Shown here piece by piece: positions 12,301 to 36,356 of a stretch of DNA of 46,382 nt. The translations under genes were made by a program, and so were the position numbers. Location of the stretch: assembly GCA_029882515.1 (NCBI GenBank), contig JAOUKN010000003.1, forward strand, positions 1 through 46,382, read 5' to 3'. Source of the DNA: Candidatus Bathyarchaeota archaeon (GTDB lineage: Archaea; Thermoproteota; Bathyarchaeia; Bathyarchaeales; Bathyarchaeaceae). The notes under the pieces were generated by a model that worked only from the letters and a program-made list of their open reading frames with translations, was not told where the DNA came from and searched no databases. Position 1 is the stretch's first letter. Each line of letters opens with the position of its first letter.

Positions 12301-14772
12301 AGTGGCGTTGGTACCATCACCAAAATCCCAGAAATAACCAACAATCGAACCATCAGGGTCATGACTATTAGTAGCGTTAAAGGTGATGGTTTCATTGGTG
12401 TAAACAGTCTGAGTCGATTCGGTAAAAGCAGCTATAGGTGGACGGTTTAACACGGTCTTGAACGCTATCGTGCTATCAGTAGCGCCGTCATCATCTGTCA
12501 CAGTAAGAGTTACTACATAATTGCCATTATTAATGTACGAGTGATCAACAGTAACTCCAGTGCCATTGCTTCCATCACCAAAGTCCCAGAAATAACTGAT
12601 AATGCTACCGTCAGGATCGTAACTCGTGGTAGCGTTGAAGTATATAGTCTCACTGGTATAGACGGTTTCCGTTGATTCTGTAAATGAGGCAATGGGGGGT
12701 CTGTTCAGAACGGTCTTACCGGCACTGGTCAAGTTAGTTGCCCCATCGTCATCATTGACTGTGAGGGTTACTGTGTAATTTCCCTCCTGAGGGTAAGAGT
12801 GCTCGGTTGTCACGCCAGTGGTGTTGGTGCCGTCACCGAAATCCCAGAAATAACTAATAATCACACCATCTGGGTCGTAACTTGCAGAGGCGTTGAAGTA
12901 GATGATCTCCTCGGTATAGATAGTTTCCACAGATTCGGTGAAAAACGCTACAGGAGGCCGATTCAACACGGTCTTGGTGGAGGTTGCGGTGTCAGTTGCG
13001 TCGTCGTCATCCGTTACGGTCAAAGCCACCGTATAAGTTCCGTCGTCAACATAAGCATGATCAACCACAACGCCAATAGCATTGATGCCGTCACCAAAAT
13101 CCCAGAGATAGCTATTAATAGTGCCATCGGGGTCATAGCTGTCTGACGCGTCAAAGTAAATGATTTCACCAGTGAGCGCGGTTGTTGCAGACTCGGTGAA
13201 TATGGCTGCTGGTGGCCTATTTAGAACAGATTTGGTGGCTGACGCCAAGTCAGTTGCTTCATCATCATCCGTAATGGTTAGGGTTATCGTGTAGTTTCCA
13301 TCATCAGCATATGAGTGGCCTACAGCTATACTTGTGGCGTTTGTTCCGTCACCAAAGTCCCAATAGTAGCTCACTATTGAACCGTCAAGATCATAGCTGT
13401 CACTTGCGTTGAACGTGATAGGCTCACTTGTATAGACGGTTTCTGCCGATTCAGTGAATGTTGCAATCGGAGGTCTATTAAGCACTGTGATGCCCTTAGA
13501 AGTGATGTCGGATAGTCCGTCGTTATCGGTCACAGTGATTGTAACTGTGTATGTTCCGTCATCAGTGTAGATGTGGGTCGTGATCTCGCCTGTAGCGTTG
13601 GTTCCGTCGCCGAAGTCCCAGAAATAAGTGACGATTGACCCGTCAGGGTCATAGCTGCTCGAAGCATTGAAAGTTACGGTTTCGCTAACATAAGGGTATT
13701 CCGGGGTGCAGGAGAAATTGGCTACCGGTGGTACTCCCCACGTACGTAGAAGCGTGCAATCTATTTCCCATGAATCTTGATAGGTATCCGCTGTTTCGGT
13801 TCCCCCTTTGAATCTTATGGTAAACGTGGAACTAATCAGATAGTCAGTAATTGAAATGTTGTTCCATCCACTTGATAGGTCATTGAACAGGCTTTGCCAC
13901 GTGAAACCGTCCCAAACATCGATTCGAAGATTTTCCGATCCCATAGCTCCTCCGAATATGCAAAGTTGCTCGTTGGTCAGATCGTGCGTTGCATTGGTCC
14001 ATTGAACCTCCAGATCGAGATCATAGTTAGTCATGAAATATGTTACCACAATCTTGACATAATCGCAATAAATTGTGCCTTTGTTAGTCTCATCTTGGAC
14101 AACGAAGTAAAGGTACCCGTTCGCGTTAATGTAATCGGTAATTCCAGTCGTGATGGTTGCCGTAAAGTTTTCGTCTTGTCCTCCTGCGGCGACGGTAGAG
14201 TTTTTGATATCCCAAGCAGAACCTGTAAAGTTCCATAGACGTAGATAAACAGTTGCTCCTGCACCAAGGGGAGACCCTTCGAATAAAAGGTCTAGCTGAG
14301 TAATACTGTTCTCACTGATGGTGAATTTGAAGTTGAAGTATGGTCTTCTGCCTGGAGAGCAAGGGCCAGAGGAATCCCTTACGTCATTGGAGGACTCTAT
14401 CAAGGTGTAGTCTGCTACTTCTGTCTGTCCCGTTATGTCTGGTCCATCAGCGGGTGGAGAACTTGCTTGGCCTTTGTAAGCCCACTTGGTTAAGCCTGCG
14501 CCAGCACTATAATCGTAGGTTGTTTCATCAATACCACCAGTATTTTCTTCGTTTAGAGCGTCATAAATTGAGTCTGGACCGTATTGTTGGTCTGTGAAGT
14601 TTGAGTGTGTGCCCCTGTCGGGGCTAGTGTCCACATCACTTGTGTTGTTATCGACATAATCATACTCGTCTGAAGGATTGGCATAAACAGGGAAAAGTCC
14701 AGCTGCTACGCTAACTGAAACGAGTAATCCTAGCAGAAGAAGGAGAAAGAGCCCTCTTCTTCTCCTACGCAA
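319..14772 (-). CDS. Giant secreted PKD-repeat protein with C-terminal dockerin (4817 aa)
   Basis: A TTG start follows a GGGAG ribosome site. Residues 1-31 form a signal peptide (five arginines, then a leucine core). Residues about 32-344 are non-repetitive and beta-rich, possibly two jelly-roll-like modules. About 51 tandem PKD domains follow. The first 41 are near-uniform units of about 86 residues with the cores SYDPDG, YFWDFGDGTNATG and TVTDDDGAT. The last 10 are more divergent (TYSP-type). The C-terminus (about 4755-4817) is a dockerin-like pair of calcium loops beginning DVNGDGKVRIDD and DVNGDGKVRVDD. There is no C-terminal membrane span, so attachment to the cell probably goes through the dockerin binding a cohesin; two cohesin genes lie a few kilobases upstream. 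PKD domains are Ig-like folds common in archaeal surface proteins. A role as an extended glycosylated stalk or adhesin is inference. The frame is unbroken over 14.4 kb, so it appears functional. Confidence 0.93.
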   Translation of the reverse strand: MRRRRRGLFLLLLLGLLVSVSVAAGLFPVYANPSDEYDYVDNNTSDVDTSPDRGTHSNFTDQQYGPDSIYDALNEENTGGIDETTYDYSAGAGLTKWAYKGQASSPPADGPDITGQTEVADYTLIESSNDVRDSSGPCSPGRRPYFNFKFTISENSITQLDLLFEGSPLGAGATVYLRLWNFTGSAWDIKNSTVAAGGQDENFTATITTGITDYINANGYLYFVVQDETNKGTIYCDYVKIVVTYFMTNYDLDLEVQWTNATHDLTNEQLCIFGGAMGSENLRIDVWDGFTWQSLFNDLSSGWNNISITDYLISSTFTIRFKGGTETADTYQDSWEIDCTLLRTWGVPPVANFSCTPEYPYVSETVTFNASSSYDPDGSIVTYFWDFGDGTNATGEITTHIYTDDGTYTVTITVTDNDGLSDITSKGITVLNRPPIATFTESAETVYTSEPITFNASDSYDLDGSIVSYYWDFGDGTNATSIAVGHSYADDGNYTITLTITDDDEATDLASATKSVLNRPPAAIFTESATTALTGEIIYFDASDSYDPDGTINSYLWDFGDGINAIGVVVDHAYVDDGTYTVALTVTDDDDATDTATSTKTVLNRPPVAFFTESVETIYTEEIIYFNASASYDPDGVIISYFWDFGDGTNTTGVTTEHSYPQEGNYTVTLTVNDDDGATNLTSAGKTVLNRPPIASFTESTETVYTSETIYFNATTSYDPDGSIISYFWDFGDGSNGTGVTVDHSYINNGNYVVTLTVTDDDGATDSTIAFKTVLNRPPIAAFTESTQTVYTNETITFNATNSHDPDGSIVGYFWDFGDGTNATGVTTDHSFADDGNYTVALTVTDDDGATNIVFSTKTVLNRPPVASFTESAETVYTGETIYFDASGSSDPDGSIVSYFWDFGDSTNAIGVVVDHAYVDDGNYTVTLTITDDDGATETATATKTVLNRSPVASFTESAETIYTSETITFNASASYDSDGSIVSYFWDFGDGANATGIIVEHSYPEDGNYTVTLVVTDDDGATDAATSTKTVLNRPPVASFTESAETIYVDEVISFNASVSYDLDGSIAGYFWDFGDGTNATGIIVNHTYLDDGIHIVTLTITDNDGATGLATATKTVLNKPPVAIFTESAETVYVGEPITFNATNSYDPDGMIVSYFWDFGDGANATGITVNHAFATNGTFTVTLTITDDDGATDSASSTKTILMNESPVASFTESVETVYTNEPITFNASSSYDPDGIIVSYEWDFGDGTNATGIVVERTYVDDGIYTITLTVTDDKAATDTATSVKTVLNRSPVASFTESAETVYTDEVVSFNASASYDLDGTIVSYFWNFDDETNATGVTVNHAYADNGYYTVTLTVTDDDGATDTATAAKTVLNRSPVASFTESAETIYTNEAVTFNASASYDSDGSIVSYFWDFGDGANATGIIVDHAYADDGIYAVTLTVTDDDGATDAATSTKTVLNRPPVASFTESAETVYTSEAITFNASDSYDPDGMILSYFWDLGDGANATDVTVNHAYADDGNYTVTLTVTDDDGATALVSATKMILNRHPVALFTESAETVLTQEIITFNASSSYDPDGLIVSYFWDFGDGANATGAIVEYSYVDDGDYSVTLTITDNDGATDTASATKFVLNRSPLASFTESAETINTGETVHFNASQSYDPDGMIVSYFWNFGDGSNATGIVVDLAYADDGNYTVTLTVTDDDGTTDTTTSTKTVLNRPPVASFTESAETVYTGETIHFDASSSLDLDGSVVSYFWDFGDGTNATEVTVDHAYVDDGIYTVTLTVTDDDGATNSDTAIKTVLNRPPLATFTESAEVVYINETIYLNASDSYDLDGTIVSYWWDFGDGTNATGVTTEHSYSQEGNYTVILTVTDDDGATNSTSANKTVLNRPPIAVFTESAETVYTGDTISFNASESYDLDGIIISYFWDFGDGTNNTSIVTDHAYADDGNYTVTLIITDNDGALASTSSIKTILNRPPLAFFTESAETVYTSVTITFDASTSYDPDGTVVSYFWDFGDGTNATGITVGHSYADDGNYMVTLTVTDNDGAIDTATAIKTILNRSPVAIFTESASVVYTGEVIYFDALQSHDPDGVIVGYFWDFGDGTNATGVTVEHAYTDDGNYVVTLTVTDDDGAAGTATSTKKVLNRPPVAFFTESAETVYTSVTITFNASDGYDPDGAIVSYFWDFGDSTNATGIIVNHAYSEDGTYTVTLTVTDDDDATASAGATKTVLNRPPVAIFTESAETVLVDEVIYFNASVSHDPDGSIVSYFWDFGDGTNATDVTTEHAYADNGVYTVTLTITDNDGATTSATATKNVEVTPPVAIFTESAVTVYTGEFIYFNASASYDSDGVLVSYFWDFGDGTNATGVTAEYAYTDNGNYTVILTVTDDDGVTNSATTTKTVLNRAPSASFSESAETVYTDEVITFNASASYDPDGSIATYFWDFGDGTNTTGIVTNHSFANNGNCTITLTVTDDDGATGVATATKTVLNRPPVASFTESTETVFTGEVISFNASASYDPDGIITSRFWDFGDNTNATGTIVDHTYSEDGNYTVTLTVTDDDGASSSSIATKTVLNNSPVASFTETAETVYSAEIIAFNASASYDPDGTVVSYFWDFGDGINTTGVIVDHAYADDGDYTVTLTVTDDDGASSSTSVIKTVLNRSPIASFTESTETMLVGEVIYFNASESYDPDGVVVSYFWDFGDGTNATGMTTEHGYADDGVYTATLTVTDDDGATASTSATKTVGITPPVATFTESAETVLTGETIMFNASASYDFDGVIVSYFWDFGDGTNATSVIVVHSYVDDGVYNVTLTVTDDDGATASAVSTKTVLNRSPVPSFTESATTLSTDEVISFDASASYDSDGTIVSYFWDFGDGSNATGVIVGHAYVSDGVYTATLTVTDDDGATASTSATKMVLNRSPVASFAESAETVYTNEIISFDASASYDPDGAIVSYFWDFGDGTNATGVIVDHAFADDGIYTATLTVADDDNATATDTSTKTVLNRSPVASFTESAETVYTSDVITLNASNSYDLDGTIVSYFWDFGDGTNATGVVVDRSYADDGVYTVTLTILDDDGASVSASATKTVLNRSPVALFTESVTTVFTGEVIYFNASASYDSDGIIVSYFWDFGDGTNATGVIVDHAYVDDGTYTVILTVTDDDGVTTSTSATKTVLNRSPVASFTESAETVYTNEIISFNASASYDSDGTIVSYFWDFGDGTNSTGMIVEYSYVDDGTYSVTLTVTDDDGATGIITSTKTVLNRPPVALFTETAETVLTDEIITFNASASYDPDDYIISYLWDFGDSTNSTGAIVDHAYVDDGVYTVTLTVTDDDGATASATATKIVSNRSPVASFTESAENVLTGEVIYFNASGSYDPDGYVVSYFWDFGDGINAMGVTTEHSYAEKGNYIVTLTVTDDDGATASAIATKIVGNSSPVAIFTESAAAAYTGMVISFDASSSYDPDGVIVDYFWDFGDGTNAAGLSVGHAYADDGNYTVTLTVTDDADATATATSIKTILNRSPVSIFSESATVVYTGVVIHFDASTSYDSDGVILSYFWDFGDDTNATDIIVEHAYIDDGNYFVTLTLIDDDGATGMASSTKTVLNRSPVASFTESAETVYTEEVIHFDASASYDPDGYLATYFWDFGDGTNASNVILDHAFIDEGTYIVTLTVTDNDGATTSVSATKIVLSTSPVALFTESAEIVYTDEVIYFNASASYDPNGVIVSYFWDFGDSTNATGVTVNHSYADDGIYTVILTVTDNEGETSSATSTKTILNRFPVASFTESAETVYTGESITFNASGSYDPDGVIVSCFWDFNDGTNATGVLAEHAYVNDGNYTVALTVTDDDGSVVAAVATKTILNRSPSASFIYSPSYPIVGEIVAFNASASYDLDGYVVDYAWNFGDNTTTTVATPIVSHTYAIEGDYTVTLTITDDDSATNNSTDVVMVRNYPTAAFTYSPDPPAKNQSIIFNASSSVPNGGIITSYQWDFGDGNITAVSGPILTHVYSSEGNYTVVLNVTDSEGLSDSLSQTIRVGLSPVSSFTYSPATLYVGDTATFNASASYDPDGSIISYLWDFGDGSLPVNETDPITIHVYVSDGVYSVALTVTDNEGINATNSTMITVLRAPVASFTYSPGFVLVGDVVTFDASESYDPNGYIMNYTWDFGDGNITATTSPITTHTYATAKTYVVILTVTDNEGFTDEKTKFVRIREYPTASFMCIPDYPIAGEDVTFDASSSTPNGGSIDNYHWDFGDGSLPVDTPDPILTYLYTTVGDYVVTLTVSDSEDLSDTTSTTVSVRDYPTATFQYSPTPPTAGLPVNFDGSSSTPGQGGSITDYAWDFGDGNITTTTTSMVVHVYAKAGNYTAVLTVTDSEGLSDLNVELITVEQASPVAAFVYSPDPAVKGGIVTFNASKSHDPDGQIWVYHWRFGDGETDLGWDSIVTHVYTALGQYNVTLTVEDLDENTDAISKIVTVIAGPHVDFTWEPQYPEINEVIAFDASESYDPTGSIVNYTWDFGDGNSTTVFESIITHQYGAPANYTVALNVTNDQGLWNIRQKLVSVIVTGPYVDFSWTPSDPYVNETVLFDASNSIGTVAEIANYTWHFGDGETITVVDPVVYYAYASEGNYTVALNVTDTRGFWSTASKIISILPLSGPTADFTWPYPCYPNRTITFDASTSTSGWNGTDHPPIVSYMWDFGDGNITTISVFAINHTYVQPGNYIVALTVTDELDQSDTVSYVVAVSEKLLGDVNGDGKVRIDDILAVALAFGSEPGDPNWDPDCDVNGDGKVRVDDILIAAQNFGQELP
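10367..10575 (-). repeat. Near-identical repeat patch, copy 1 (partner at 11660-11868)
   Basis: Two exact blocks, 69 bp (10367-10435) and 98 bp (10478-10575), recur at the same offset of 1293 bp at 11660-11728 and 11771-11868. The offset equals five PKD units plus one codon. The rest of the array is much more diverged at synonymous sites, so this suggests recent gene conversion or unequal exchange. Confidence 0.75.
11660..11868 (-). repeat. Near-identical repeat patch, copy 2 (partner at 10367-10575)
   Basis: This is the partner of the patch five PKD units away. The similarity continues past 11868 into the next linker (about 11880-11945) with only scattered differences. Confidence 0.75.
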
Positions 14773-14989: not shown

Positions 14990-15751
14990 TTAGTGAAGTG
15001 TTCTTTCAAATAATCTGCGTCTGTACAAGCCTATAGCAACTGTAAGCATGGTAAATAAAAGAAGCATTGATATCCATGTGGAAAATTCTGGAACCCAGCT
15101 ATATCCATTAGAAGACATATCTCCCCACACTGCTGGTTCTGAAATACCGGCCGTGGAAGGCCATGCATACCATCCCATATCAACATCCATATCAACGATT
15201 AGAAACATAACTCCAAGCGTCTTATTTCCGCCAGCAGTCACATCCAACTTTGCATAGGTAATATTGTATTCACACTGCCACGCAGTCGATGTTGAATTAG
15301 CTTTCGCTGTCCAACCACAGACTGTGGTTGGAAACCAACCGCCTGCAGTTACATTGTATTCTTGTGTGGCACCGATACGAGAAATACGAAACCACACGTC
15401 GTCTGTCTGCAATGAGGTGTTCCTATCGTGATCAACATCGAAGATAAGAATACAACAGTCACTATTGTTGAACGTAGAGTCTGGTATGTCAAATCCGGCA
15501 TAGAGGTTAGTACCATCTTGCTTGGCATAGACTGTGCAACTGGCCCCGTCGGTAATTGAAACCGTAATATTACTGGCATCATTCCATTCGCCACTTTCAA
15601 AGGCCCCGTTTAAAGTTGGAGTCAAACCATGCACAGCAACTATGATGTTCTCAGAAGATGCTTCGGTCATAGGAGCGTTAAATGCAATAGCTAACGCAGC
15701 AGCCAAAAGCAGGGCTAACATTTTTTTGGCTATCTTTTTCTTATCATACAA
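14990..15751 (-). CDS. CBM9/DOMON-like secreted protein with PEF-CTERM-like tail (253 aa)
   Basis: The TTG start follows AGGTAGAG, with a strong box A at 15788-15797. Residues 1-31 are a signal peptide. Residues about 40-200 look like a CBM9/DOMON beta-sandwich: the early motif LNGAFESGEWNDAS matches the family's opening (D/N-G-x-x-x-x-x-E-W-x-x-A), and a later FDVDHDRNTSLQTDD resembles its metal loop. The C-terminus carries VPEFSTW (about 220), a hydrophobic span and then YRRR. This is the three-part layout of archaeal PEF-CTERM tails, which are thought to be cut and anchored by an archaeosortase; no archaeosortase gene is in the window. Several NxS/T sequons are present. A sugar- or ligand-binding surface protein is the likely role. 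It is the only protein of the cluster with an obvious C-terminal anchor. Confidence 0.82.
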   Translation of the reverse strand: MYDKKKIAKKMLALLLAAALAIAFNAPMTEASSENIIVAVHGLTPTLNGAFESGEWNDASNITVSITDGASCTVYAKQDGTNLYAGFDIPDSTFNNSDCCILIFDVDHDRNTSLQTDDVWFRISRIGATQEYNVTAGGWFPTTVCGWTAKANSTSTAWQCEYNITYAKLDVTAGGNKTLGVMFLIVDMDVDMGWYAWPSTAGISEPAVWGDMSSNGYSWVPEFSTWISMLLLFTMLTVAIGLYRRRLFERTLH

Positions 15752-15837: not shown

Positions 15838-16824
15838 CTAGCCGCTATAATTGCCAAAGGCTTGCGCCACAATCAGAACATCATCTACGCGGACTTTGCC
15901 GTCACCATTTATGTCAACACTAGGATCCCAGCCTTCGTCACCCTCGTTCATGCCGAAAGCCAAAGCCACAGCCAACACGTCATCTACCCGCACCTTACCG
16001 TCATCGTTCACATCACCGATTAGAATGACTTCAAACGTTGTGCTATTGGTTATGAACAGCATTTGATATTGTGAAACTGCTGAGATGCTGTAGTTGCCCG
16101 TGATCCCTCCTTCAGGGTTCGTACGAAATGTCAGATTGAATTCTCCTGGTGTACTTGTGCCGAAAGATTCTTCGGAGGTATAGGTTTCTCCTCCCCCTCC
16201 ACCAACAATGTTAAATCCAACTGACGCTTCAGGGCAGTAGGCGAATCCGTTTTCGTTCGGCCATCCATACAACGCACTGGTGTATATAAACGCGGGGCCG
16301 AGAGATATGTATTCAGAGATTGGTATAGGCCAGATGAAACGACGTTCCTCTTGTTCTGGTCCTAGCTCTGTTTGGAATAGTTTCTGCGCTATGAAGGGTA
16401 AACCGGTTGAGTCATAAAGATTCAACGTGACCGTCACATTCTCTGAGGTGAGCCCGTTGTTTTTCACGGTTATGTTTATTCCTAGACCTTCGCCTAGTGT
16501 GAAGCTCGATTTGGCGTTTCCAAATCGGTCACATGTGACCAATTCTGGGATCTCAACAACCCATGGACCCACAGGATTGTCCCCTGTCGGCAGGGTCCTT
16601 AATACGAACAGGTTCTCATTTGGATCGTCTATTTGGATTGCTACAAAGCCATCAGTTACAGGTGAACCATCCAGCATTAGGCTTCCATGGACCGAAACGC
16701 TTTCTCCAAGACCGTTTTCCTGGTCAACACTCAAAATGAGTTTCAAGCTCACGGCTTGTACAACTTGGACTGTTACGAGGATGACGAGGATAGTAAGGAA
16801 GGTGAACCACTGTTTCCGAGACAT
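15838..16824 (-). CDS. Secreted beta-sandwich protein with C-terminal dockerin (328 aa)
   Basis: ATG start. Residues 1-26 are a signal peptide. Residues about 27-110 resemble an Ig-like domain (VDQENGLGESVSVHGSLMLD, the style of extracellular 'polysaccharide-deacetylase-linked' or MG-like modules). Residues about 110-170 resemble CARDB (INITVKNNGLTSENVTVTLN). About residues 268-328 are a dockerin-like pair with calcium loops DVNDDGKVRVDD and DINGDGKVRVDD, each followed by an AxAFG-type helix end. A short glycine run (NIVGGGGGETY) separates the middle modules. It lies 97 bp downstream of the cohesin-dockerin gene. It is probably an exported partner docked to a cohesin. I recognise no enzyme motif. 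Confidence 0.85.
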   Translation of the reverse strand: MSRKQWFTFLTILVILVTVQVVQAVSLKLILSVDQENGLGESVSVHGSLMLDGSPVTDGFVAIQIDDPNENLFVLRTLPTGDNPVGPWVVEIPELVTCDRFGNAKSSFTLGEGLGINITVKNNGLTSENVTVTLNLYDSTGLPFIAQKLFQTELGPEQEERRFIWPIPISEYISLGPAFIYTSALYGWPNENGFAYCPEASVGFNIVGGGGGETYTSEESFGTSTPGEFNLTFRTNPEGGITGNYSISAVSQYQMLFITNSTTFEVILIGDVNDDGKVRVDDVLAVALAFGMNEGDEGWDPSVDINGDGKVRVDDVLIVAQAFGNYSG

Positions 16825-16921
16825 TTTGTTCTATCCCGTTTTTATCTATAAAGAAAACTTAAAGATACAAGTATAAACCTTGTGCAGCTGTCTTGTTGCC
16901 ACTTGTCTGAGAAACGGATGG

Positions 16922-17956
16922 TTACGGTGCCCATTCTTTTCCAAACTCCTTAGCGACAGCCAAAACATCGTTTACGCGCACCTTGCCATCCTTGTCTAGG
17001 TCTGTATATGGGTTCCAGTCCGGGTCACCTTCATTGGAGCCGAAGGCTAAGGCCACAACTAGAACATCATCTACGCGGACTTTTCGGTCACCATTTATGT
17101 CTCCGATGATCGTGGCGAAGATTTTGATGTTTCTTGTTGAGTGTTGATAGGTGAACTGTATGAAATCGTGTGTTGCATTCTTAGAGAGGCTATAGGGAGT
17201 CGGAGTGGTGTCTACGAGAACCATTATTGTACTGACGTTTCCGTTGAGGAACGATGTTGGTGTTGCCACAGTTGTCGACCCAACAGTTCCTGTGGTTCCT
17301 GTTGCGTCAAACATAATTTTTTTCGATCCTTGGTCGTAGTTGAACGTTGTGATCGTTGAGTTGCTGAAGATTAGAACATGATAGGTTTCTTGGTTGATTA
17401 TCACCGTAAACAAGTTTTCTTCAAAGCCTTGGTCTGTGACGATTACAATGCCATCCATTCCTTCGAATGGAATGAATTCATAATCTGGCTCCTGAAGATA
17501 GGTGTCGCAGAGTTCGCTGGGACATTCGGGTTCTACTATTTCTAAGCTGCTGATGCCTGGGTCTATGCTGTTGAATTCTACTTGAACTAAATTGCCTGAG
17601 CCATTTACGCCATAGGTTCCATCTAATACACAGAAAACCAGCACGTATCCTTCTGCATTGTCAATTTCAGGTGGAAATAGAATGAAGTAGCTTCCGAAGA
17701 TATTTTCGTCAGGAACTGTAATGTCAGTACAGTTGATTATTGAGGGGTTGAAACCAAGTCGAAGTTGCCATGTATTGAGGTTGGTCACATTGGATACGGT
17801 AACGTTGATTGTGACTGTTTGCCCTATCTGGACATAGCTCTTGTTAGGATTCACGATGATTGCCGTTCCTGCGAGCGGAGAAGCAAAGCGGAAGCTGAGA
17901 AATATTATCGTGGAAGTGACAAGTAATCCTAATAAGATTGTTGCTTTGCGATTCAT
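16922..17956 (-). CDS. Secreted cohesin-plus-dockerin protein (344 aa)
   Basis: ATG start with a purine-rich GAGG upstream. Residues 1-30 are a signal peptide. Residues about 31-180 match a cohesin-like fold: IIVNPNKSYVQIGQTVTINV, NVTNLNTWQLRLGFNPS, then GVNGSGNLVQVEF and a terminal DGIVIV strand, the usual cohesin progression. Residues about 185-275 are another beta module. Residues about 283-344 are a dockerin with loops DINGDRKVRVDD and DLDKDGKVRVND. A protein with both halves of the interaction can act as an adaptor or self-assemble into chains. The cohesin assignment rests on motif pattern only and needs a structure or profile check. Confidence 0.83.
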   Translation of the reverse strand: MNRKATILLGLLVTSTIIFLSFRFASPLAGTAIIVNPNKSYVQIGQTVTINVTVSNVTNLNTWQLRLGFNPSIINCTDITVPDENIFGSYFILFPPEIDNAEGYVLVFCVLDGTYGVNGSGNLVQVEFNSIDPGISSLEIVEPECPSELCDTYLQEPDYEFIPFEGMDGIVIVTDQGFEENLFTVIINQETYHVLIFSNSTITTFNYDQGSKKIMFDATGTTGTVGSTTVATPTSFLNGNVSTIMVLVDTTPTPYSLSKNATHDFIQFTYQHSTRNIKIFATIIGDINGDRKVRVDDVLVVALAFGSNEGDPDWNPYTDLDKDGKVRVNDVLAVAKEFGKEWAP

Positions 17957-18066
17957 GTAAATCCTCTTCTCAAGCTCATTTAGATCTCCGAGACAGTAAA
18001 GGGTTTTGGTTAAGTTACTTTTACCTTCATATTCTTACATGATTCTCTGTATAGAAATTTTCACAA

Positions 18067-18100
18067 AAAAGGAGAGGATGAGATGTGTGCACGTGCACAC
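18067..18100 (-). terminator. Perfect 16-bp palindrome followed by a T run, after the scaffoldin gene
   Basis: GTGTGCACGTGCACAC at 18085-18100 is a perfect palindrome starting 20 bases after the stop of the scaffoldin-like gene. On the minus strand it is followed by a pyrimidine-rich stretch and TTTTTT (18065-18070). This fits a hairpin terminator. A dimeric repressor site for the next gene (start 17956) is the alternative. Confidence 0.45.
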
Positions 18101-18120
18101 GCTTAGTTTACGGTTTTACC

Positions 18121-20436
18121 CTAGTATGGCAGTACGTAGATTGTGGTTGTGTCTTCCGGTCCTGCAGCAGTCCATCCGTCCACATACCAGAAGAGTGGAA
18201 CTGCATGGATTGTTGCTGTGCCAACGAAGACAAACTTGTCAATGTGTAGACTTAGTTCCACCAGGTACTCTTCCGCCGTGCAGAATTCTGCTCCGGTGAC
18301 ATTGAGCATTACTACTCCAAATGCAACTGGCACGTTGAGTTCGTCATGGATGGTTACGCGCATTGCGACGAGATATTGTTGTTGTGCATGGCTGGTGAAG
18401 GTAATACTGATGTCTACCCATTCACAGTGTTCGTAGTAGTACTTGTCAGTTGTAACTTCGACGATGTTTACTAGCCAGTCGTAGTGGAATTCAAGCTCAT
18501 CGTAGATTGATTCGCAGGCGACGTCGACTTCTGCTACAACTCTCCATACTCCGAGTAGGCTTTCAGGATCATCGCAGGGCCACGGTAGTCTGAATGAGAC
18601 GCATGCCACGCCGTCTTCGTCTGTGACGGCTTGCAGCGTTGTCCACATGTTGTCTTGATTATCCCAGACTGTGAAGGTTACTAGTTTTTGCTGTACTGGC
18701 CAGCAGTTGAAGGTTACGTTTGCGCAGAGGATGACCTCTTTTTGTGGCCAGAACATGTCGCTGGGCTGCATTAATCCTTGGCCTCCGTATGGAGCTGGAT
18801 ATTGGGTGTATACGTCGATGATTCGACCCACTTCAAATGAGCCTAGTATTGTATAGGTACCGTCTACGGGGTCTCGATAGCCTATGGGTTCACTCTTCTT
18901 GTCAATCATTAGTATGTCGTACAGGATGAAGTCGCATTCGAAGTCTTCTGGATCGCAACTGACGTCTTGCGCTGTCACTTCAAAGGTGATGATGGCGATT
19001 GTTCCATTTTCTACCGGATCTCCGCCAGCCACAGGATCTGGATAGTATCCTGTTCCGTTTGGCAGGATCAAGTCCATGAGCACGATGTAGTCGCCTTCGT
19101 CAAACGCCTGGAAGATTGTAGGTTGCGGTGCACCGGTTTGCTCGAATTGGGGTAGGTAGTCTCCTTCTTCGATGCTTACTACTTGCATCAAATCGGGACA
19201 ATAGGTTAACCTGAATTCAACTCCTACGAGGTACCAGTTCCAGTGTAGCTCCTTGATGTTCACAGCGATTGTAAATTCTTCGCCGACTGCAGGTGCAGGT
19301 CCCAATGTGGTATCGTTGGGCACCACTTCTAAGTATGGTGGTACGATTGATAGGTACGCAACTACCTGAACCATACCGTCTACAGGTTCACTGTCTATTG
19401 TATATTCATGGTCCCAGACTTCGGTTTCGTCGCAGAATGCTAGTGCAGTTTCGTTGTAGGCTCCTTGTGCCTCTGGTGGGGCGTTTCCTTGTACTAGTAT
19501 TTCGAAGGTGATGGTGGCAACGAGTACAGAGGCTCCTCCGTCTTGTGAGCCAGAGAAGCCGCGAACGGTGGCGTTAACCCAGTCTAAGGTATCATGGCTC
19601 ATGGTGATGCTGTTCGTGCCAGTCCAATCCGCCGTGTTAAGGACTGCTGCTGTAGCGTTGATGAGGGTTGAGTCATAGCTTAGGCAGAAAGTGGCGTTGG
19701 TCATGCCCCAACCGGCGTAGTAGTTGGCAATAACAACGTCAACATCGAAGGTTGTACCAACCCAGTGAGTCCATTGGTCGAAAATGTTTTCGTCGTCGTC
19801 GGTGGTGAACCAACAGGGTGCTGGTGCCGACCACGTGAAATTGTAGTTCGCGTTAATTCCTATCCATCGGTAGTAGACCTGTGCATCGTCTTGGATGTAG
19901 TTATCCTCGCTAGTCGTGATGTCAAGGAGACTGTTAAATTCTTCACCTTTTGTCGGAACCGATACCACTTCGAATTCAAGGTAGGCCACGCTGGATGGGC
20001 AATGGCTTGGACCTGGATACGGACCACTGAAGTACGACTCAGCGAATAGTACGTAGTCGCGAGTGCTATCATATGAGCCGTATGACGGGGATGTAGCGAT
20101 GTGTGTGGTTCCAGCTTTTATGAAGAGTTCGCTTGCGTCGGTGCCTTCATCAATTCCGGAGTACCAGGCGCCATTACATTGTAGGTGGTTCTTGTTGTAT
20201 AACATGTAGAACTGCCATGAAGCAACGCTTACGTTTGAGTTTACGAATACGGTGACATTGAATTTGTAGCCGATGGATGTCGTAGACGTATCGAAGCTGA
20301 TGTTGGCGGGTTCAATCCACAGGGCATTGGCCGGGTGAGTTGTGCTGGGAACATCATATGCAAGGACTGGTAGTACAGAAAGTAGAAGCATTAGAACTGC
20401 CATTGACACTATAATCTTCTTTAGGTTTCTTTTCAA
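18121..20436 (-). CDS. Scaffoldin-like secreted protein with three cohesin-like domains
   Basis: I place the start at a TTG at 20436, giving MKRNLKKIIVSMAVLMLLLS, a clean signal peptide. The frame is open to an ATG at 20460, but that codon sits about where transcription should begin from the box A at 20480-20491, and GGGAG lies 4 bases before the TTG. Numbered from 20460, three cohesin-like beta-sandwiches follow: about 45-200 (SIGYKFNVTVFVNSNVSVAS), 215-375 (VGTTFDVDVVIANYYAGWGM) and 385-545 (VGEEFTIAVNIKELHWNWYL). Each has the hydrophobic strand order of cohesins and ends with a GxV-type strand. Residues about 550-779 hold two Ig/MG-like domains. There is no dockerin and no C-terminal anchor. 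Three cohesins could hold three dockerin proteins, and four dockerin proteins are encoded nearby. The cohesin calls are by pattern and may be a divergent subfamily. Confidence 0.82.
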   Translation of the reverse strand: MKRNLKKIIVSMAVLMLLLSVLPVLAYDVPSTTHPANALWIEPANISFDTSTTSIGYKFNVTVFVNSNVSVASWQFYMLYNKNHLQCNGAWYSGIDEGTDASELFIKAGTTHIATSPSYGSYDSTRDYVLFAESYFSGPYPGPSHCPSSVAYLEFEVVSVPTKGEEFNSLLDITTSEDNYIQDDAQVYYRWIGINANYNFTWSAPAPCWFTTDDDENIFDQWTHWVGTTFDVDVVIANYYAGWGMTNATFCLSYDSTLINATAAVLNTADWTGTNSITMSHDTLDWVNATVRGFSGSQDGGASVLVATITFEILVQGNAPPEAQGAYNETALAFCDETEVWDHEYTIDSEPVDGMVQVVAYLSIVPPYLEVVPNDTTLGPAPAVGEEFTIAVNIKELHWNWYLVGVEFRLTYCPDLMQVVSIEEGDYLPQFEQTGAPQPTIFQAFDEGDYIVLMDLILPNGTGYYPDPVAGGDPVENGTIAIITFEVTAQDVSCDPEDFECDFILYDILMIDKKSEPIGYRDPVDGTYTILGSFEVGRIIDVYTQYPAPYGGQGLMQPSDMFWPQKEVILCANVTFNCWPVQQKLVTFTVWDNQDNMWTTLQAVTDEDGVACVSFRLPWPCDDPESLLGVWRVVAEVDVACESIYDELEFHYDWLVNIVEVTTDKYYYEHCEWVDISITFTSHAQQQYLVAMRVTIHDELNVPVAFGVVMLNVTGAEFCTAEEYLVELSLHIDKFVFVGTATIHAVPLFWYVDGWTAAGPEDTTTIYVLPY

Positions 20437-20479
20437 TATTCTCCCTTCTCTTTTCAACATGTATCTGATGAACTCTGCG

Positions 20480-20491
20480 GATTTAAGTATT
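20480..20491 (-). promoter_or_regulatory. Box A (TATA) for the scaffoldin-like gene
   Basis: The minus strand reads AATACTTAAATC. Transcription about 25 bases downstream would start near 20457, so the TTG at 20436 with its GGGAG fits as the start codon better than the ATG at 20460. Confidence 0.45.
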
Positions 20492-20646
20492 ACGGAAGTA
20501 TCTTCTATCTCCTAGACGTGTACATCAGCACTCCTTGTTCGATCTGGCTTCACACATTCTCTCAAAATTATCAAAATGAAAAGTAGACAATATTTCGTAA
20601 GGAGAGAATATAAAAAGGGGGGGAAGGGGTTGTTTCAGTTTTTCGT

Positions 20647-23145
20647 TTATGGCCAGCCGAAGTTGAGGGCGACAGCCAGAATGTCGTCGACTCGGATTTT
20701 GAAGTCGCCGTTGACGTCGCATCGTGGATCCCATCGCAAGAAGGCGACAAGGGGATCGGAACCGAAGGCGAGGGCAGCGGCTAAGACGTCGTCCACACGA
20801 ACTTTGTCGTCGATGTTGATGTCTTCGGGGATGGTGGCGTGGATGGTGTGCGTATACGTGTCCACGAGCAGCGTACCTTGCCAAACTTCCACGGTGATCT
20901 CTACGGTTCCTGCGCAGAGGGGATAGATGGTGTAGGGGCCGAGTTTCGCCCAGTCAAACACGTTGACTTGGGTGTCGTTTTCGACATGCTTTACTACGCC
21001 GTCTTCTTTGATCACTACGTCCACAGTCTTGTTGGCGAGTTCGCCGTCGACTTTGTAGCCATAGTTCGTAACCAAGACGTTGTATTCCACGGGATCTTCA
21101 ACGCAATCTGTCTCGTTCACGAAAGCAATGTAGGGTGCATCAACAACCGCCTTGATGGGGCCGTCCACCCAGTAAACGTCGCTTGAGTGGACTTCGCCGA
21201 TTCGGGTGGCGTCATCGTAGTAGTCGTAGACGAAGGCGCCAGCACCGACGTTGGCGGTTTGTGGGGCGTTGCTGTCACGTGGCGGCAGACCGGCATCCGG
21301 CCAAGCAGCGTAGTAGTCGAGGTACTGTGGGCGCACGGATGTGTACCAGAGTTCTTTGGCTTTGGCGGTCCAGTCTTGGTAATCCCACGCATCGGGGACC
21401 ATGGCGTCAAACGCGATTTTCTGTTCGTCGGGATTAACTGAGGATTGTTCAGCCATTTCGTCGAGGATGTAGTAGATGTGCTTCGGGAAGTAGGACGCGA
21501 TTTGTGGATAGTCTTCGTACCAGAGGCTGGTCGCATTGAAGTAGGTGATGAACTCGTAGGGACCTTTGGCTTCCGTGTAAACGACAGTTTTCCACGTGCT
21601 CTCGTATCTGCCAACCTCCCATTTCTTGAGCATGTTGAAGGCGAATTGGCAGTCGTCGGCCGTGAACTGGAAGGTTTTGCCGCCTGCACCGGTGTCCTGC
21701 CAGTAGACATCGTTTCGGAGGTAGTAGGTGACTTTCATGCCGTCCGGTATGTTCAACGCTGCCGATACGTCAGCGTTAACCGTGCTGTTGACGGCTTCAA
21801 TTTTGGATTTGTATGCTATCCAAGGTAAGTCGGTGCTGGGAACTGGTGGCGAAAACATCATTAATGGTTCGTGGAGTCCGTCTAAGAGCAACCATCCATA
21901 TAAGGTATTGTCGGTCCATGGGCTCAGTGTGTCAGGTTCGTCTCCCATGGCGCGTCGTATTAAGCCTTCGTAGGGCGGATTGTTATATACAGTGCCTGGA
22001 CCCCAGTGGACGCTTCGCCAGTTCAGGTAGCATTGGTCCGCGCCTGGACCCGGTGAGCCGATGAAGTTATCGAGGTCGGGATCCCACGTAGTAATACCTT
22101 GACCCGTGGTGACGGGGAAGAGGGGCATCCAGTCACTGACGAAGAGGCGTTGCATCTCCCAAACGGCGTCCAGCACAGTAGCTTCATCCAGATTGTACAT
22201 CATCGTCTCCAAGAGGTCATCCATTGTATCGTTGACGAAGCCACCAAAGTTCCATTGCCATGGACCGATGGTGCTTGAATGGTAATTGTCAAAACACCAG
22301 TCCGGAGTTAGTCCCAAACCAGTCAATCCGATGCCAATAAAGTCGAAGTCATGGAAATCCATTAGCTCGTAGACTAAGGTCATGAACTCTCGATCGGTCA
22401 AGATGAAGTTAGGACCGTTCGTGGCGCCTTTACTGTCAAAGAAGGCGTTCACTTGGCCAACGAATTGTTGGAGGATGTATTCCCATGAGAGGGTGCCCGT
22501 GCTGTACACGACTTCGAGGTCTCGTACGCGGCTGCCGTCAGGGTTAAGCAGATAACCCGCATCGTCGCCAGCCCCTAAGGTGTAATCGGCATCCATCAGA
22601 ATCTGCCAGGCGGTATCGTTGTCAGTGTCCGGCATGACGTCCACATTGTTGCACCAGCCGCCTTGAGCGGGCATTATCGCGGATCCTAGGGCGACGGTGA
22701 GGGAGTTCTGGTAGTACTCGTAGATGGCGTCAGCTTTGTCATCCATACCCCACACGTAGGATAGCGCCACTCTAAAGCGGCTATCGTTGAGGGGCTTACA
22801 CGTTTCTCCCGGCGTCCTTCCGGCAGGTCCACCGACCACGTGTGCACAGTATTCATCTCGGTTTTGTACTGCCATAAATCCAAAGGCAGATATAGGATCA
22901 AACGTCATGTTGTATCCCGCCGCGACACAAGCATCGATGAGTTCAGTGGTTCCCGGACCAGGCCTCATGTCAATTTCGTGGTCAACCAACAAGGCAGCGT
23001 TCATCTGTGCGGTGTCATCGTACACCTTGTACTGGATCTTTTGAATGTGCGGAAACGGATCGTTAATGTTGGTTGTCGCAGATACGCTTAAGAGCAATAT
23101 AAGAGCAAACAGCGTAGCAATTACAATAGGTTTTTTCGAAAGCAA
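20647..23145 (-). CDS. Oligopeptide ABC transporter binding protein, apparently circularly permuted, with C-terminal dockerin
   Basis: Family 5 (DppA/OppA) extracellular solute-binding protein. I place the start at a TTG at 23145 (MLSKKPIVIATLFALILL), preceded by AGGAGAAAGGAG; the frame is open to a TTG at 23178 but the box A at 23190-23202 favours the inner start. Numbered from 23178, residues 45-390 resemble the C-terminal half of the family: IQYKVYDDTAQMNAALLVD (usually mid-protein), then PLNDSRFRVALSYVWGMD. Residues 402-675 resemble the N-terminal half: YEGLIRRAMGDEPDTLSPW, MKVTYYLRNDVYW, FTADDCQFAF, and last VGAGAFVYDYY with DVYWVDGP, which normally sits just before the segment that here comes first. 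Residues about 680-782 are CARDB-like; 785-843 are a dockerin (loops DINIDDKVRVDD, DVNGDFKIRVDD). It is divergent from the permease-ATPase operon and surely feeds it. Confidence 0.9.
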   Translation of the reverse strand: MLSKKPIVIATLFALILLLSVSATTNINDPFPHIQKIQYKVYDDTAQMNAALLVDHEIDMRPGPGTTELIDACVAAGYNMTFDPISAFGFMAVQNRDEYCAHVVGGPAGRTPGETCKPLNDSRFRVALSYVWGMDDKADAIYEYYQNSLTVALGSAIMPAQGGWCNNVDVMPDTDNDTAWQILMDADYTLGAGDDAGYLLNPDGSRVRDLEVVYSTGTLSWEYILQQFVGQVNAFFDSKGATNGPNFILTDREFMTLVYELMDFHDFDFIGIGLTGLGLTPDWCFDNYHSSTIGPWQWNFGGFVNDTMDDLLETMMYNLDEATVLDAVWEMQRLFVSDWMPLFPVTTGQGITTWDPDLDNFIGSPGPGADQCYLNWRSVHWGPGTVYNNPPYEGLIRRAMGDEPDTLSPWTDNTLYGWLLLDGLHEPLMMFSPPVPSTDLPWIAYKSKIEAVNSTVNADVSAALNIPDGMKVTYYLRNDVYWQDTGAGGKTFQFTADDCQFAFNMLKKWEVGRYESTWKTVVYTEAKGPYEFITYFNATSLWYEDYPQIASYFPKHIYYILDEMAEQSSVNPDEQKIAFDAMVPDAWDYQDWTAKAKELWYTSVRPQYLDYYAAWPDAGLPPRDSNAPQTANVGAGAFVYDYYDDATRIGEVHSSDVYWVDGPIKAVVDAPYIAFVNETDCVEDPVEYNVLVTNYGYKVDGELANKTVDVVIKEDGVVKHVENDTQVNVFDWAKLGPYTIYPLCAGTVEITVEVWQGTLLVDTYTHTIHATIPEDINIDDKVRVDDVLAAALAFGSDPLVAFLRWDPRCDVNGDFKIRVDDILAVALNFGWP

Positions 23146-23189
23146 ATACTCCTTTCTCCTATTTTTTCTATACTGCAAGAATATTGAGG

Positions 23190-23313: not shown

Positions 23314-24318
23314 ATGGGATTCAGAGGTTATTTCTTAAACAGGATAGCAATAGCAGTAGCAGTCCTCTTCATCGTATTAGTATTGAACTTCTTGATTTTC
23401 CGTGTGTTCAGCCCCTATGATCCCACTGATATGATAATAGACCCAGATTTCGAGCAAGCAACGAAGGATAGGCTCAGAGCTGAATGGGGATTGGATCGCC
23501 CTCTTTTTCCCGATCAATTCGTCTTGTACCTGAAAAATCTGCTCACCTGGAACTATGGGCGGCAATTTGACCAATCAAAAAGTCTTATAGCACCGCAGAT
23601 GGCTTGGCGCCTCCGAAACACACTTTTGCTTCTTGGAACAGCAACGATAGGAGTCATACTCGTAGGAATCCCGCTCGGAATCTTGGCAGGGTCAAGAAGA
23701 GGAAGCAAAACAGACATAACGATCATAGGCGCAGGGCTCTTTACATGGGGTGTTCCAACCTTTTTCGTTCAACTGATTTGGTTGTTCGTCTTTTCTGCGA
23801 CCTGGAACTCCGTTTTTGGGGCGCCACTTATCCCTAGAAGTGGAGTCGTCGGCTTGCCTCCACCAGAAGGACTACTTGAAACATTAAAGGATGTTGCATG
23901 GCATGCAATTTCTCCCATATGTACCTTGATCATTGCAGGTTTTGGATCCTGGGCATTGTACACTAGAAACATGATGGTCGATGCGCTCACAGAAGACTAT
24001 ATTCAGACGGCTCGTGCTAAAGGAGTGAAGGGCAGAGATGTGTTGTTTCGGCATGCCTTTCGAAGCATACTTCCCCCTGTCGCCACTATGGTGGCTTTGG
24101 CGATTCCGGGAATAGTCACGGGTGCCATAATAACTGAGAGTCTGTTCGGTTGGCCAGGGATTGGAGCATGGTACATAAATGCTCTGATGAACCGCAATCA
24201 TCCAGTGGCTCAAGCAGTCCTCTACAACTATGCAGTTTTGATGATAGGGGCCAACCTTGTCACAGATCTGCTTTATGGGTTCCTAGATCCTAGAATACGT
24301 GTAGGCCAAAGAAGGTAA
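23314..24318 (+). CDS. dppB: Peptide ABC transporter permease, DppB-type (334 aa)
   Basis: This is the first of the two membrane subunits that form the peptide channel. It has an N-terminal span (about 8-30) typical of DppB, a loop with FSPYDPTDMI, then further spans. The EAA-type coupling motif for the ATPases is seen in YIQTARAKGVKGRDVLFRHA, and the C-terminus has the usual FGWPGIGAWYINALMNRN and a DPRIRVG ending. Length is normal for DppB. ATG start with GAGGAGGT. The next gene begins 16 bases after its stop. Confidence 0.93.
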   Translation: MGFRGYFLNRIAIAVAVLFIVLVLNFLIFRVFSPYDPTDMIIDPDFEQATKDRLRAEWGLDRPLFPDQFVLYLKNLLTWNYGRQFDQSKSLIAPQMAWRLRNTLLLLGTATIGVILVGIPLGILAGSRRGSKTDITIIGAGLFTWGVPTFFVQLIWLFVFSATWNSVFGAPLIPRSGVVGLPPPEGLLETLKDVAWHAISPICTLIIAGFGSWALYTRNMMVDALTEDYIQTARAKGVKGRDVLFRHAFRSILPPVATMVALAIPGIVTGAIITESLFGWPGIGAWYINALMNRNHPVAQAVLYNYAVLMIGANLVTDLLYGFLDPRIRVGQRR

Positions 24319-24333
24319 AGGAGGCTCAACAGA

Positions 24334-25854
24334 GTGGCCCTGTTTCGCAAGGAAAAAAGAACAATATACGTGAGAAAGATCAAGAATTTTTGGGAAGAGT
24401 TCAGTCACAACAGAATCGGTCTTGCCGGTATTGGTATCTTAATATTCTACGTAATGGTAGCTGTCTTCACTCCCTATATTTCTCCGATGAGACCCACAAG
24501 CCAAGAGTATAATCCTCCTCGCTCGGCTGCGATGTATGCAATGCCCGAATGGGTGCGTATCTTCCCTCAGTTTCAGGATTTACCTCCGTCTTTTGAGGTC
24601 CGATTATTAGAGAACGTGACGCTAGTGAACTCGACCGTAACTGACCGTGCAACACTCCAATTTGACAAAGAAGCGCTCAACATTACTTTCCATGCAGACG
24701 CTGAGGAAGAGGAAGGAAGCATTCTTCTTCATCTGACTGCATTTAGTTACGTCTATGCTCCTCCATCGGACTTCAAGCTCACAACGGTCTACTACGAAAC
24801 AGGTAACCAAATACGGTATGAAATAGACTTGTTCTTGACGACTGATCAACAAAATGATATATGGGACGAATGGCTGGAAGATCCAACAAGAGCTGTCTTA
24901 TATACTAATGACAGAAAAGTGACTCGCTACCCAAGTGTTGACAAAAAGATTAGAAGAAGCTTGTATGCTGGGTTAATGAATGAACAGCTGTTCGCTTGGC
25001 AATACCCGAATGACGCCGTACAATACGCATTTCTCCATCCGTCAGAGATGCTACTCTCCAAAAAAGGAAGTTACGACTTCTATCTTGAGATAAAATTCAA
25101 CTCGCTTGCGTCTACTTCAACATGTAACATACATATTGACACTGCTGAAGTCAAGTTCTTTGGTGATGTTTGGGGATTATTAGGAAGTGACAGAGTTGGT
25201 CACGACGTTTGGGCACAACTAATTTATGGAGTTAGAATCTCCTTGATCGTTGGATCTCTTGCAGCGGTTCTCTCATCAGTCCTTGGGATTTCGTTCGGAG
25301 TGATAGCAGGATATTCTGGAGGGAGAACCGATCAAATAATAATGCGAGGTGTAGACGTGCTTCTCTGCTTACCAGTACTTCCTATCTTGCTTATATTATC
25401 GTCATACTGGAGCTTCAACGTGTATTACGTTATCCTTCTTATAGCCATTTTTGGATGGCAAGGTTTATCAAGAATAGTCAGATCCAAAGTTCTCTCCCTT
25501 AAAGAAGTGCCTTTCATAGAAAGTGCAAGAGCTGCGGGCGCAACCTCAGGATACATTATGACGCGCCACATTATACCAAATGTCCTCCCAGTAGTTATGG
25601 CAGCCATGGTTCTCGCTGTACCCGGCGCTATTCTAACCGAAGCCGCGTTAAGCTTTCTAGGATTCGGGGATCCCTCCGTGCCAACTTGGGGAAGAATGCT
25701 CTACCGATCCCGAACGCAAGGAGGTTTTGAGAGTTTAGCTTGGTGGTACGTCATACCGCCTGGGCTTGCAATCACCTTCTTATGTTTGGCTTTTGTGTTC
25801 ATTGGACATGCCTTAGACGAAATCGTGAACCCGAGACTTAGGAGACGACGCTAA
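24334..25854 (+). CDS. dppC: Peptide ABC transporter permease, DppC-type, with a large extracellular insertion (506 aa)
   Basis: GTG start with AAAGGAGG overlapping the end of the previous gene. Residues about 30-50 form the first span, ending TPYISP. From about 280 the protein is a standard DppC: LLGSDRVGHDVWAQLIYGVR (family form LGTDxxGRD), the EAA-loop ESARAAGATSGYIMTRHIIP, and LTEAALSFLGFGDPSVPTWG. DppC is normally about 300 residues. Here about 210 extra residues (66-278), with alternating beta-type hydrophobicity and two NxT sequons, sit between the first span and the core, on the outer face. They may touch the dockerin-bearing binding protein, which is inference. Its stop codon is directly adjacent to the next ATG. 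Confidence 0.93.
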   Translation: MALFRKEKRTIYVRKIKNFWEEFSHNRIGLAGIGILIFYVMVAVFTPYISPMRPTSQEYNPPRSAAMYAMPEWVRIFPQFQDLPPSFEVRLLENVTLVNSTVTDRATLQFDKEALNITFHADAEEEEGSILLHLTAFSYVYAPPSDFKLTTVYYETGNQIRYEIDLFLTTDQQNDIWDEWLEDPTRAVLYTNDRKVTRYPSVDKKIRRSLYAGLMNEQLFAWQYPNDAVQYAFLHPSEMLLSKKGSYDFYLEIKFNSLASTSTCNIHIDTAEVKFFGDVWGLLGSDRVGHDVWAQLIYGVRISLIVGSLAAVLSSVLGISFGVIAGYSGGRTDQIIMRGVDVLLCLPVLPILLILSSYWSFNVYYVILLIAIFGWQGLSRIVRSKVLSLKEVPFIESARAAGATSGYIMTRHIIPNVLPVVMAAMVLAVPGAILTEAALSFLGFGDPSVPTWGRMLYRSRTQGGFESLAWWYVIPPGLAITFLCLAFVFIGHALDEIVNPRLRRRR

Positions 25855-35600: not shown

Positions 35601-36356
35601 ATGTCTGAAGAAACTCCGCTTACCCATCTTCTATATTACAAAGATGCTTACCTCAAAGAATTTGACGCCAAAATCTTGAAAATTCAAAACACAAACGAAG
35701 AATACCATATGGTGTTAGATCAAACCGCCTTCTATCCACTAGGAGGAGGCCAACCCGCAGACACTGGCATCATCAAAAAAGAAAAGAGAGAAATCAAGGT
35801 TTCAGATGCTAGGATGCTTAATGGTCGAGTAATCCACATTGCTAAAGAAGTGGTGGGAGAAATCAAGGAAGGAGACCACGTAGAAGGCGTCATTGATTGG
35901 GATCGCAGATACGCCTTGATGCTTAATCACACAGCCGCTCATTTGATGTCGGAAGCTCTCCGAAAAGTAACCGGACTTCCTATGAAGATAGTTGGCTCTG
36001 GAATTGACGCTGAAAAGGTTCGACTAGACTTAGCCTATGATGGCTCCCTAGGGCCAGCATTACCGCAAATCGAAAAAATCGCCAATGACATCATTAGGGA
36101 AAATAGGGCAGTAATTGCAAAAACAATGCCAAGAAAAATAGCTCAAAGATATGTTGAAAAGTTTCATGAAAGCTTGAAGACTCTGCCGCCTCGAGTGCAG
36201 GAAGTTCGAATTGTGGAGATCAAGGATTTACACGCTTGCGCGTGTGGAGGAACTCATCTAAGAAACACTGGAGAGATAGGAGCAATCAAGATTTTGAAAA
36301 GAAGATCCAAAGGTAAAGGTGTCGAAAGAATTGAGTTTTTGGCGCAAAAGTCTTAA
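35601..36356 (+). CDS. alaX: Alanyl-tRNA editing protein AlaX (251 aa)
   Basis: A free-standing relative of the AlaRS editing domain that hydrolyses mischarged Ser- or Gly-tRNA(Ala). It has the N-terminal glycine-rich domain with YPLGGGQPADTG (about 45-56), the first zinc motif NHTAAHL (H110, H114), and the second CACGGTH (C215, H219), completing the H-x3-H...C-x3-H metal site. Presence of the glycine-rich domain without the C-Ala region fits the AlaX-M type. ATG start, own promoter. Confidence 0.93.
   Translation: MSEETPLTHLLYYKDAYLKEFDAKILKIQNTNEEYHMVLDQTAFYPLGGGQPADTGIIKKEKREIKVSDARMLNGRVIHIAKEVVGEIKEGDHVEGVIDWDRRYALMLNHTAAHLMSEALRKVTGLPMKIVGSGIDAEKVRLDLAYDGSLGPALPQIEKIANDIIRENRAVIAKTMPRKIAQRYVEKFHESLKTLPPRVQEVRIVEIKDLHACACGGTHLRNTGEIGAIKILKRRSKGKGVERIEFLAQKS

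Follow-up and report, generated by a model that had tools for sequence, protein, structure and literature searches.

We analyzed a window of 46,382 nucleotides (positions 1 to 46,382 of contig JAOUKN010000003.1, assembly GCA_029882515.1, Candidatus Bathyarchaeota archaeon) that encodes on one strand a protein with three cohesin modules, hereafter the scaffoldin, an adaptor made of a cohesin, a linker and a dockerin, and three other proteins ending in a dockerin: a giant protein with PKD domains, a beta-sandwich protein and a solute-binding protein (SBP). The genes of an Opp-type importer start next to the SBP gene and are read in the opposite direction (Table 1). These modules very likely make up a genuine cohesin-dockerin system. 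We consider it probable that they are the core of a secreted, cellulosome-like assembly whose cargo is capture and surface proteins in place of cellulases, most likely a surface scaffold keeping peptide-capture proteins close to the membrane.

The evidence for the modules themselves comes from two hidden Markov models (HMMs) that were seeded solely from other genomes to avoid circularity (7 dockerin and 29 cohesin sequences); the seed alignment of an earlier dockerin HMM held sequences of the window, which makes its E-values unfit as proof. The new dockerin HMM detects exactly four dockerins in the window, in the giant PKD protein (E 1.8e-19), the adaptor (1.6e-19), the beta-sandwich protein (1.7e-16) and the SBP (1.7e-13). 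All four are composed of two loop-and-helix repeats and retain both calcium loops. The cohesin HMM also gives exactly four matches, one in the adaptor (E 9e-24) and three in the scaffoldin, at residues 58-167 (9e-5), 231-372 (2e-6) and 391-540 (4e-11). Neither HMM matched any of the 20 shuffled versions made of each open reading frame (ORF) of the window. These are the four dockerin-bearing proteins on one strand and the three plus one cohesin-like domains that a preliminary description of this DNA, made from the sequence alone, had proposed in the same genes. The ORFs agree with that description as well, except that the scaffoldin, whose three cohesins stand, extends to 20460 instead of 20436. 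Pfam alone was weaker: PF00963 matched two stretches of the scaffoldin (E 1.4e-11), the cohesin (E 3.6e-4) and dockerin of the adaptor both fell just under the cut-off, and the dockerin profile reached E 1e-4 to 1e-5 in three window proteins, with no match in the SBP.

Predicted structures are in line with these assignments. In an AlphaFold2 model of the scaffoldin built with 13 orthologues (mean predicted local distance difference test score of 80), module 3 (residues 373-541 by VIA alignment) superposes on cohesin 6kgc with a Z of 16.0 and a root-mean-square deviation (rmsd) of 2.2 over 137 residues, and on the cohesin of the archaeon Archaeoglobus fulgidus (2xdh) with a Z of 15.5. The assignment of the two other modules as cohesins is by profile only: module 2 matches cohesin 1g1k among the PDB profiles (E 4.8e-6) and module 3 in profile-profile comparison (99.7%), while module 1, the weakest case, matches the type II cohesin 3l8q (E 3.4e-4) and module 3 (97.8%). 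The adaptor cohesin resembles 4uyp (Z 17.5, rmsd 2.0 over 135 residues) and 2xdh (Z 16.1), and the 50 matches listed for it are all cohesin entries. Foldseek places the whole adaptor closest to the cohesin-X-dockerin structures 3kcp and 4fl4 of C. thermocellum (E 8e-14), which bears out its earlier description as a cohesin-dockerin adaptor; the same search with the whole scaffoldin model returned long multi-immunoglobulin (Ig) proteins and was uninformative. The C-terminal sandwiches of the scaffoldin have folds resembling complement/macroglobulin and GH2 domains, and the region that they form recurs within other proteins of relatives. Since the invariant columns in the alignment of orthologues are mostly located there, it probably has a function of its own.

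These results bear on the reading that the modules have no binding function and are vestigial or plain Ig-like domains. Several of them do lie at or just under the Pfam cut-offs, as this reading would have it, but the fold matches are specific to cohesins, the calcium-loop residues are intact, the contact positions of the dockerins are uniform within genomes and orthologues are kept across many genera. We rejected it on the cohesin-specific folds and profiles and regard it as highly improbable. The profile searches of the beta-sandwiches against cohesin families returned cohesins, and the outcome that the preliminary description had named as refuting its case, matches to generic Ig or CARDB families in the absence of any cohesin signal, did not occur.

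The SBP matches the SBP_bac_5 profile (PF00496) with both halves present and their order swapped. Its residues 30-406 correspond to about positions 200-510 of solved family-5 SBPs (PDB profile, best E 7.7e-16), and residues 407-690 to about positions 10-210 of the same families (best E 1.1e-15). The earlier description of a peptide-binding protein holds as far as family and dockerin are concerned, and had overlooked this circular permutation. Among 8 aligned proteins from 7 genomes, including one protein cut short by its contig end, the swapped order is kept, and collinear relatives were found in 35 of the 162 genomes of the order (threshold 1e-60, some matches being partial). Such proteins are conserved across genera of the order (with L, G and C for loci, genomes and contigs, and G000 for the genome of the window: L126:11623-13710, L116:4339-7098, L123:3300-5543, L121:16745-19054, L132:8997-11042 and L120:10863-13337), and G119 has an unpermuted SBP at the equivalent place (L115:2263-4500). 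When the permuted proteins were compared with the latter by BLAST, mainly the common dockerin was matched, and it was the split-profile search that decided the permutation. A first scan of the genome contigs with the SBP alone as query gave no match, and a literature search for permuted SBPs, with subscription papers outside its scope, found no relevant description. Two of the matches in relatives (G059:C1:1652736-1654598 and G047:C18:11201-13030) have one in-frame stop within a long frame (TGA and TAA, respectively).

Two permeases and two ATPases adjoin the SBP gene, as expected of an Opp/Dpp ABC importer, and this neighborhood is conserved. The scaffoldin has matches in 49 of the 162 genomes of the order (E 1e-10, partial matches counted), and 39 of the 40 stronger matches in the class belong to this same Bathyarchaeota order. 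Its neighbors in relatives include dockerin-bearing family-5 SBPs, Opp genes, cohesin-dockerin adaptors, anchored cohesins and orthologues of the beta-sandwich protein, which adjoin it and often have inserted PKD domains. About ten other genomes, one of them represented by CP070730.1, have Opp genes and/or a dockerin-bearing family-5 SBP near the scaffoldin orthologue; besides the window, the clear loci with either or both are L113/L114, L115, L116, L120, L121, L123, L126, L127, L129 and L132. The importer set is also complete in L115, L123 and L126, and adaptor orthologues occur in L118, L120, L113 and L115. Opp genes were not found in the stretch examined at L124, L125, L128 and L131, and several further scaffoldin loci stop at a contig edge. 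The conserved synteny with the Opp transporter strengthens the idea of a scaffold with capture proteins.

The cohesin and dockerin proteins of the window all lack a membrane anchor, and the scaffoldin has neither a dockerin nor a C-terminal anchor. Anchored cohesins are present elsewhere in the genome and in relatives: the locus L034 on contig C216 has the same gene order as L122, with an adaptor, an anchored cohesin of 231 residues and a second anchored cohesin. A C-terminal membrane segment followed by a basic tail was called in 15 of 37 cohesin-only proteins; among 70 proteins with a dockerin there were 2 such calls, of which the one in the window SBP is a miscall of its dockerin helix (corrected, 1 of 70). 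The associated Fisher value of 1e-6 is indicative only, since the proteins are related to one another and the rule is one of simple hydrophobicity, with a threshold chosen after they had been viewed. These counts indicate a division of labor in which anchors are on cohesin proteins and seldom on dockerin-bearing ones.

The system was described earlier as compact, which we rule out. Across the genome there are 26 matches to the type I dockerin profile PF00404 at E<=1, roughly 27 dockerin segments and 7 matches to PF00963; cohesins and dockerins are scattered over many contigs, the cohesin-dockerin system is genome-wide, and other cohesins are found on contigs C216, C191, C63, C21 and C35. In L035 (G000:C191), the gene at 8800-10875 encodes a protein of cohesin-CARDB-cohesin-CARDB build with a lone half-dockerin at its end, and another permuted SBP (11707-13341), divergent from it, runs off the contig. 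The C-terminal ends of L052:7482-9116 and L035:8800-10875 hold one dockerin repeat only, of the GDVNGDGKVRVDDILMVALEFGLG type.

The cargo of these dockerins bears on the function of the assembly. Many or most of the other dockerin proteins of this genome have NosD/beta-helix, PQQ, Kelch or PKD domains rather than transport functions, which suits a coat or adhesion matrix of PKD fibers, beta-helices, propellers and Kelch domains serving cell-cell or cell-surface contact, where the SBP would just be moored and uptake would not be the purpose. Adhesion or partner interaction has been proposed for cohesin-dockerin proteins of anaerobic methanotrophic (ANME) archaea and their partner bacteria (PMC9012536, PMC10553843). 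Yet in those ten or so other genomes the scaffoldin cluster has an Opp transporter, a dockerin-bearing SBP or both as neighbors, and two more binding proteins of this genome, of the Peripla_BP_6 (branched-chain amino acid) type, also bear dockerins (L039:6560-8695 and L053:7641-9260). We consider a matrix of this kind rather unlikely as the main purpose. No glycoside hydrolase match was found in the 10 genome proteins scanned, a subset of the dockerin proteins, and there was one sub-threshold Pectinesterase match.

The specificity of the dockerins was studied with 72 sequences from G000, G059 and G099, through the mutual information between each position and the genome of origin, with permutation of labels. 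The signal is highest at positions 9, 11, 14, 17 and 18 of both repeats (z 9 to 18, to which within-genome duplication contributes, as label permutation leaves common ancestry in); position 7 is also marked (z 12 and 6 in the two repeats), positions 15, 16, 22, 23, 30 and 31 are intermediate, and z is about 0 at positions 2, 4, 6, 8 and 13. About 17 of the 23 dockerins of G000 have R-V/I-D at positions 9 to 11, and smaller sets from other genomes have DGK, DLK and NVL among other motifs. In R. flavefaciens complexes the residues Ser-40, Val-43, Met-46 and Gln-47 contact the cohesin (PMC5429695), and we equate them with positions 11, 14, 17 and 18, assuming that the numbering of that study is one higher. 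In each of the three genomes, the majority of dockerins agree in their residues at these positions, and the residues vary from one genome to another. That the signal is concentrated where contacts are made, and recurs in the second repeat as in the first, argues for selection on these residues. We tentatively suggest a more specific arrangement, a transport-built machine of cellulosome type in which a dockerin code private to the lineage would let the Opp-linked scaffoldin gather permuted SBPs along with further surface proteins, with separate cohesins as anchors.

Which cohesins receive which dockerins is a distinct question. The cohesins within one genome are diverse and have no common signature, in contrast with the uniform dockerins, and several lie on the other contigs listed above. 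The scaffoldin might pair with other dockerins, for example those of the adaptors only, while the SBP and the PKD protein would dock on other, anchored cohesins; the cluster would in that case be a store of parts and not a single complex. The uniformity of the dockerins suggests broad interchangeability instead of private pairs, and the conserved gene order suggests joint use, so that we hold separate pairings of this sort to be unlikely.

In the favored assembly, the calcium-folded dockerins of the SBP, the beta-sandwich protein, the giant PKD protein and the adaptor would plug into the three cohesins of the scaffoldin, adaptors and anchored cohesins would moor the whole to the cell, the OppBCDF permease would have the peptide-capture protein at its side in several copies, and the giant PKD protein may act as a long spacer or tether. 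From the sequences, a single complex of these particular partners is plausible, and so is peptide capture as its purpose. Several observations weigh against it. The prevalence of dockerins on NosD-like, PQQ and Kelch proteins implies an assembly that serves more than peptides. Family-5 SBPs also bind sugars, nickel and heme, and peptide as the putative substrate is read from the family only. The anchored cohesins of this genome nearest to the window are those of another contig, C216. The genomes G056, G038, G007 and G015 have related proteins and no Opp genes in the stretch examined, some of these stretches stopping at contig ends. Finally, the test used for dockerins gave no comparable signal on 77 cohesins (mean z 1.1, maximum 5.5), and co-evolution of the partners is therefore not demonstrated; the net charge of cohesins showed no simple pattern by genome either. 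A general surface scaffold in which uptake is one task among others fits the data equally well.

The architecture has clear counterparts. Like the clostridial and ruminococcal cellulosomes, it has a scaffoldin with repeated cohesins, a cohesin-X-dockerin adaptor, anchored cohesins (here outside the window) and dockerins with two symmetric calcium repeats. It differs from them in having no cellulase on the dockerin proteins examined, the cargo consisting of binding, PKD, beta-helix and propeller proteins, and in anchors that are C-terminal hydrophobic segments instead of the SLH (S-layer homology) or sortase types. The SBP shares both halves with solved structures of ordinary OppA/DppA proteins (SBP_bac_5), and differs in their order and in its C-terminal dockerin. 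In A. fulgidus, whose cohesin is archaeal, non-cellulosomal and of the same fold, there are a few isolated cohesin and dockerin modules, whereas here there is a multi-cohesin scaffold with many dockerins. The A. fulgidus modules were described by Bayer 1999 and Haimovitz 2008 (as cited in PMC9012536). For ANME archaea, the relevant sections of Chadwick et al. 2022 (PMC9012536) describe proteins containing as many as 5 cohesins, and substrate-binding proteins of OppA/NikA type that bear dockerins, so such modules were not unknown in archaea, and both features are shared with the present system. The proposal of a cellulosome-like scaffold with nutrient capture made in the preliminary description gains from the conserved Opp synteny and loses from the genome-wide spread of the set, the missing anchor in the window and this precedent. 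Relative to what those sections describe, the present system lies in another archaeal lineage and has a conserved Opp-linked cluster, a scaffoldin without dockerin, a permuted SBP and genome-specific dockerin residues; the lineage, the link to the Opp operon, the tiered architecture, the genome-specific residues and the permuted SBP appear to be additions to prior art. A literature search for Bathyarchaeia with dockerin or scaffoldin, within the same scope as the one above, found no relevant paper.

Table 1. Features of the window, with strand and basis of assignment (aa, amino acids).
Feature	Coordinates	Strand	Basis
Giant secreted PKD protein, 4817 aa, about 51 PKD matches, C-terminal dockerin	319..14772	-	Pfam
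Giant PKD protein, dockerin	334..495	-	PF00404, HMM
CBM9-like protein, C-terminal hydrophobic anchor	14990..15751	-	Pfam
Secreted beta-sandwich protein, 328 aa, C-terminal dockerin	15838..16824	-	Pfam, orthologues
Beta-sandwich protein, dockerin	15853..16014	-	HMM
Adaptor, 344 aa: cohesin, Ig-like linker domain, dockerin	16922..17956	-	Foldseek, orthologues
Adaptor, dockerin	16940..17101	-	HMM
Adaptor, cohesin (residues 30-176)	17429..17869	-	Structural alignment
Scaffoldin, 779 aa: signal-like N-terminal helix, 3 cohesin modules, conserved C-terminal Ig-like/macroglobulin-like domain pair	18121..20460	-	
Scaffoldin, C-terminal region (residues 544-779), two Ig-like sandwiches, not cohesin	18124..18831	-	Fold, alignment
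Scaffoldin, cohesin module 3 (residues 371-543)	18832..19350	-	Best PF00963 stretch, predicted fold
Scaffoldin, cohesin module 2 (residues 216-370)	19351..19815	-	HMM, PDB profile, profile-profile
Scaffoldin, cohesin module 1 (residues 41-215), most divergent of the three	19816..20340	-	HMM, PDB profile, profile-profile
Family-5 SBP (OppA/DppA type), circularly permuted, 843 aa, C-terminal dockerin	20647..23178	-	Pfam, PDB profile
SBP, dockerin, loops DINIDDKVRVDD and DVNGDFKIRVDD	20656..20823	-	HMM
SBP, second half (ordinary N-terminal part, about 10-210)	21109..21960	-	PDB profile
SBP, first half (ordinary C-terminal part, about 200-510)	21961..23091	-	PDB profile
OppB-type permease, divergent from SBP gene	23314..24318	+	Homologous relatives are BPD_transp_1 proteins
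OppC-type permease	24334..25854	+	PF00528, PF12911
OppD-type ATPase	25855..26817	+	ABC motifs in translation; relatives with ABC_tran, oligo_HPY
OppF-type ATPase	26823..27815	+	Homologous relatives with ABC_tran, oligo_HPY

Among the other features of the window, the giant PKD protein is of unusual length and its open frame is clean. The CBM9-like protein has neither cohesin nor dockerin and is at most a candidate member of the set. Apart from the cluster, positions 35601-36356 encode a likely trans-editing factor, a stand-alone protein of 251 residues with alanyl-tRNA synthetase-type and SAD editing domains.

If the partners bind each other, the principle of the cellulosome would extend to nutrient capture in an abundant and largely uncultured group of archaea, and the window would provide a defined set of genes open to expression and testing one module at a time. 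A candidate function would also emerge for the cohesins and dockerins of archaea, the role of which has been in question since their description in A. fulgidus.

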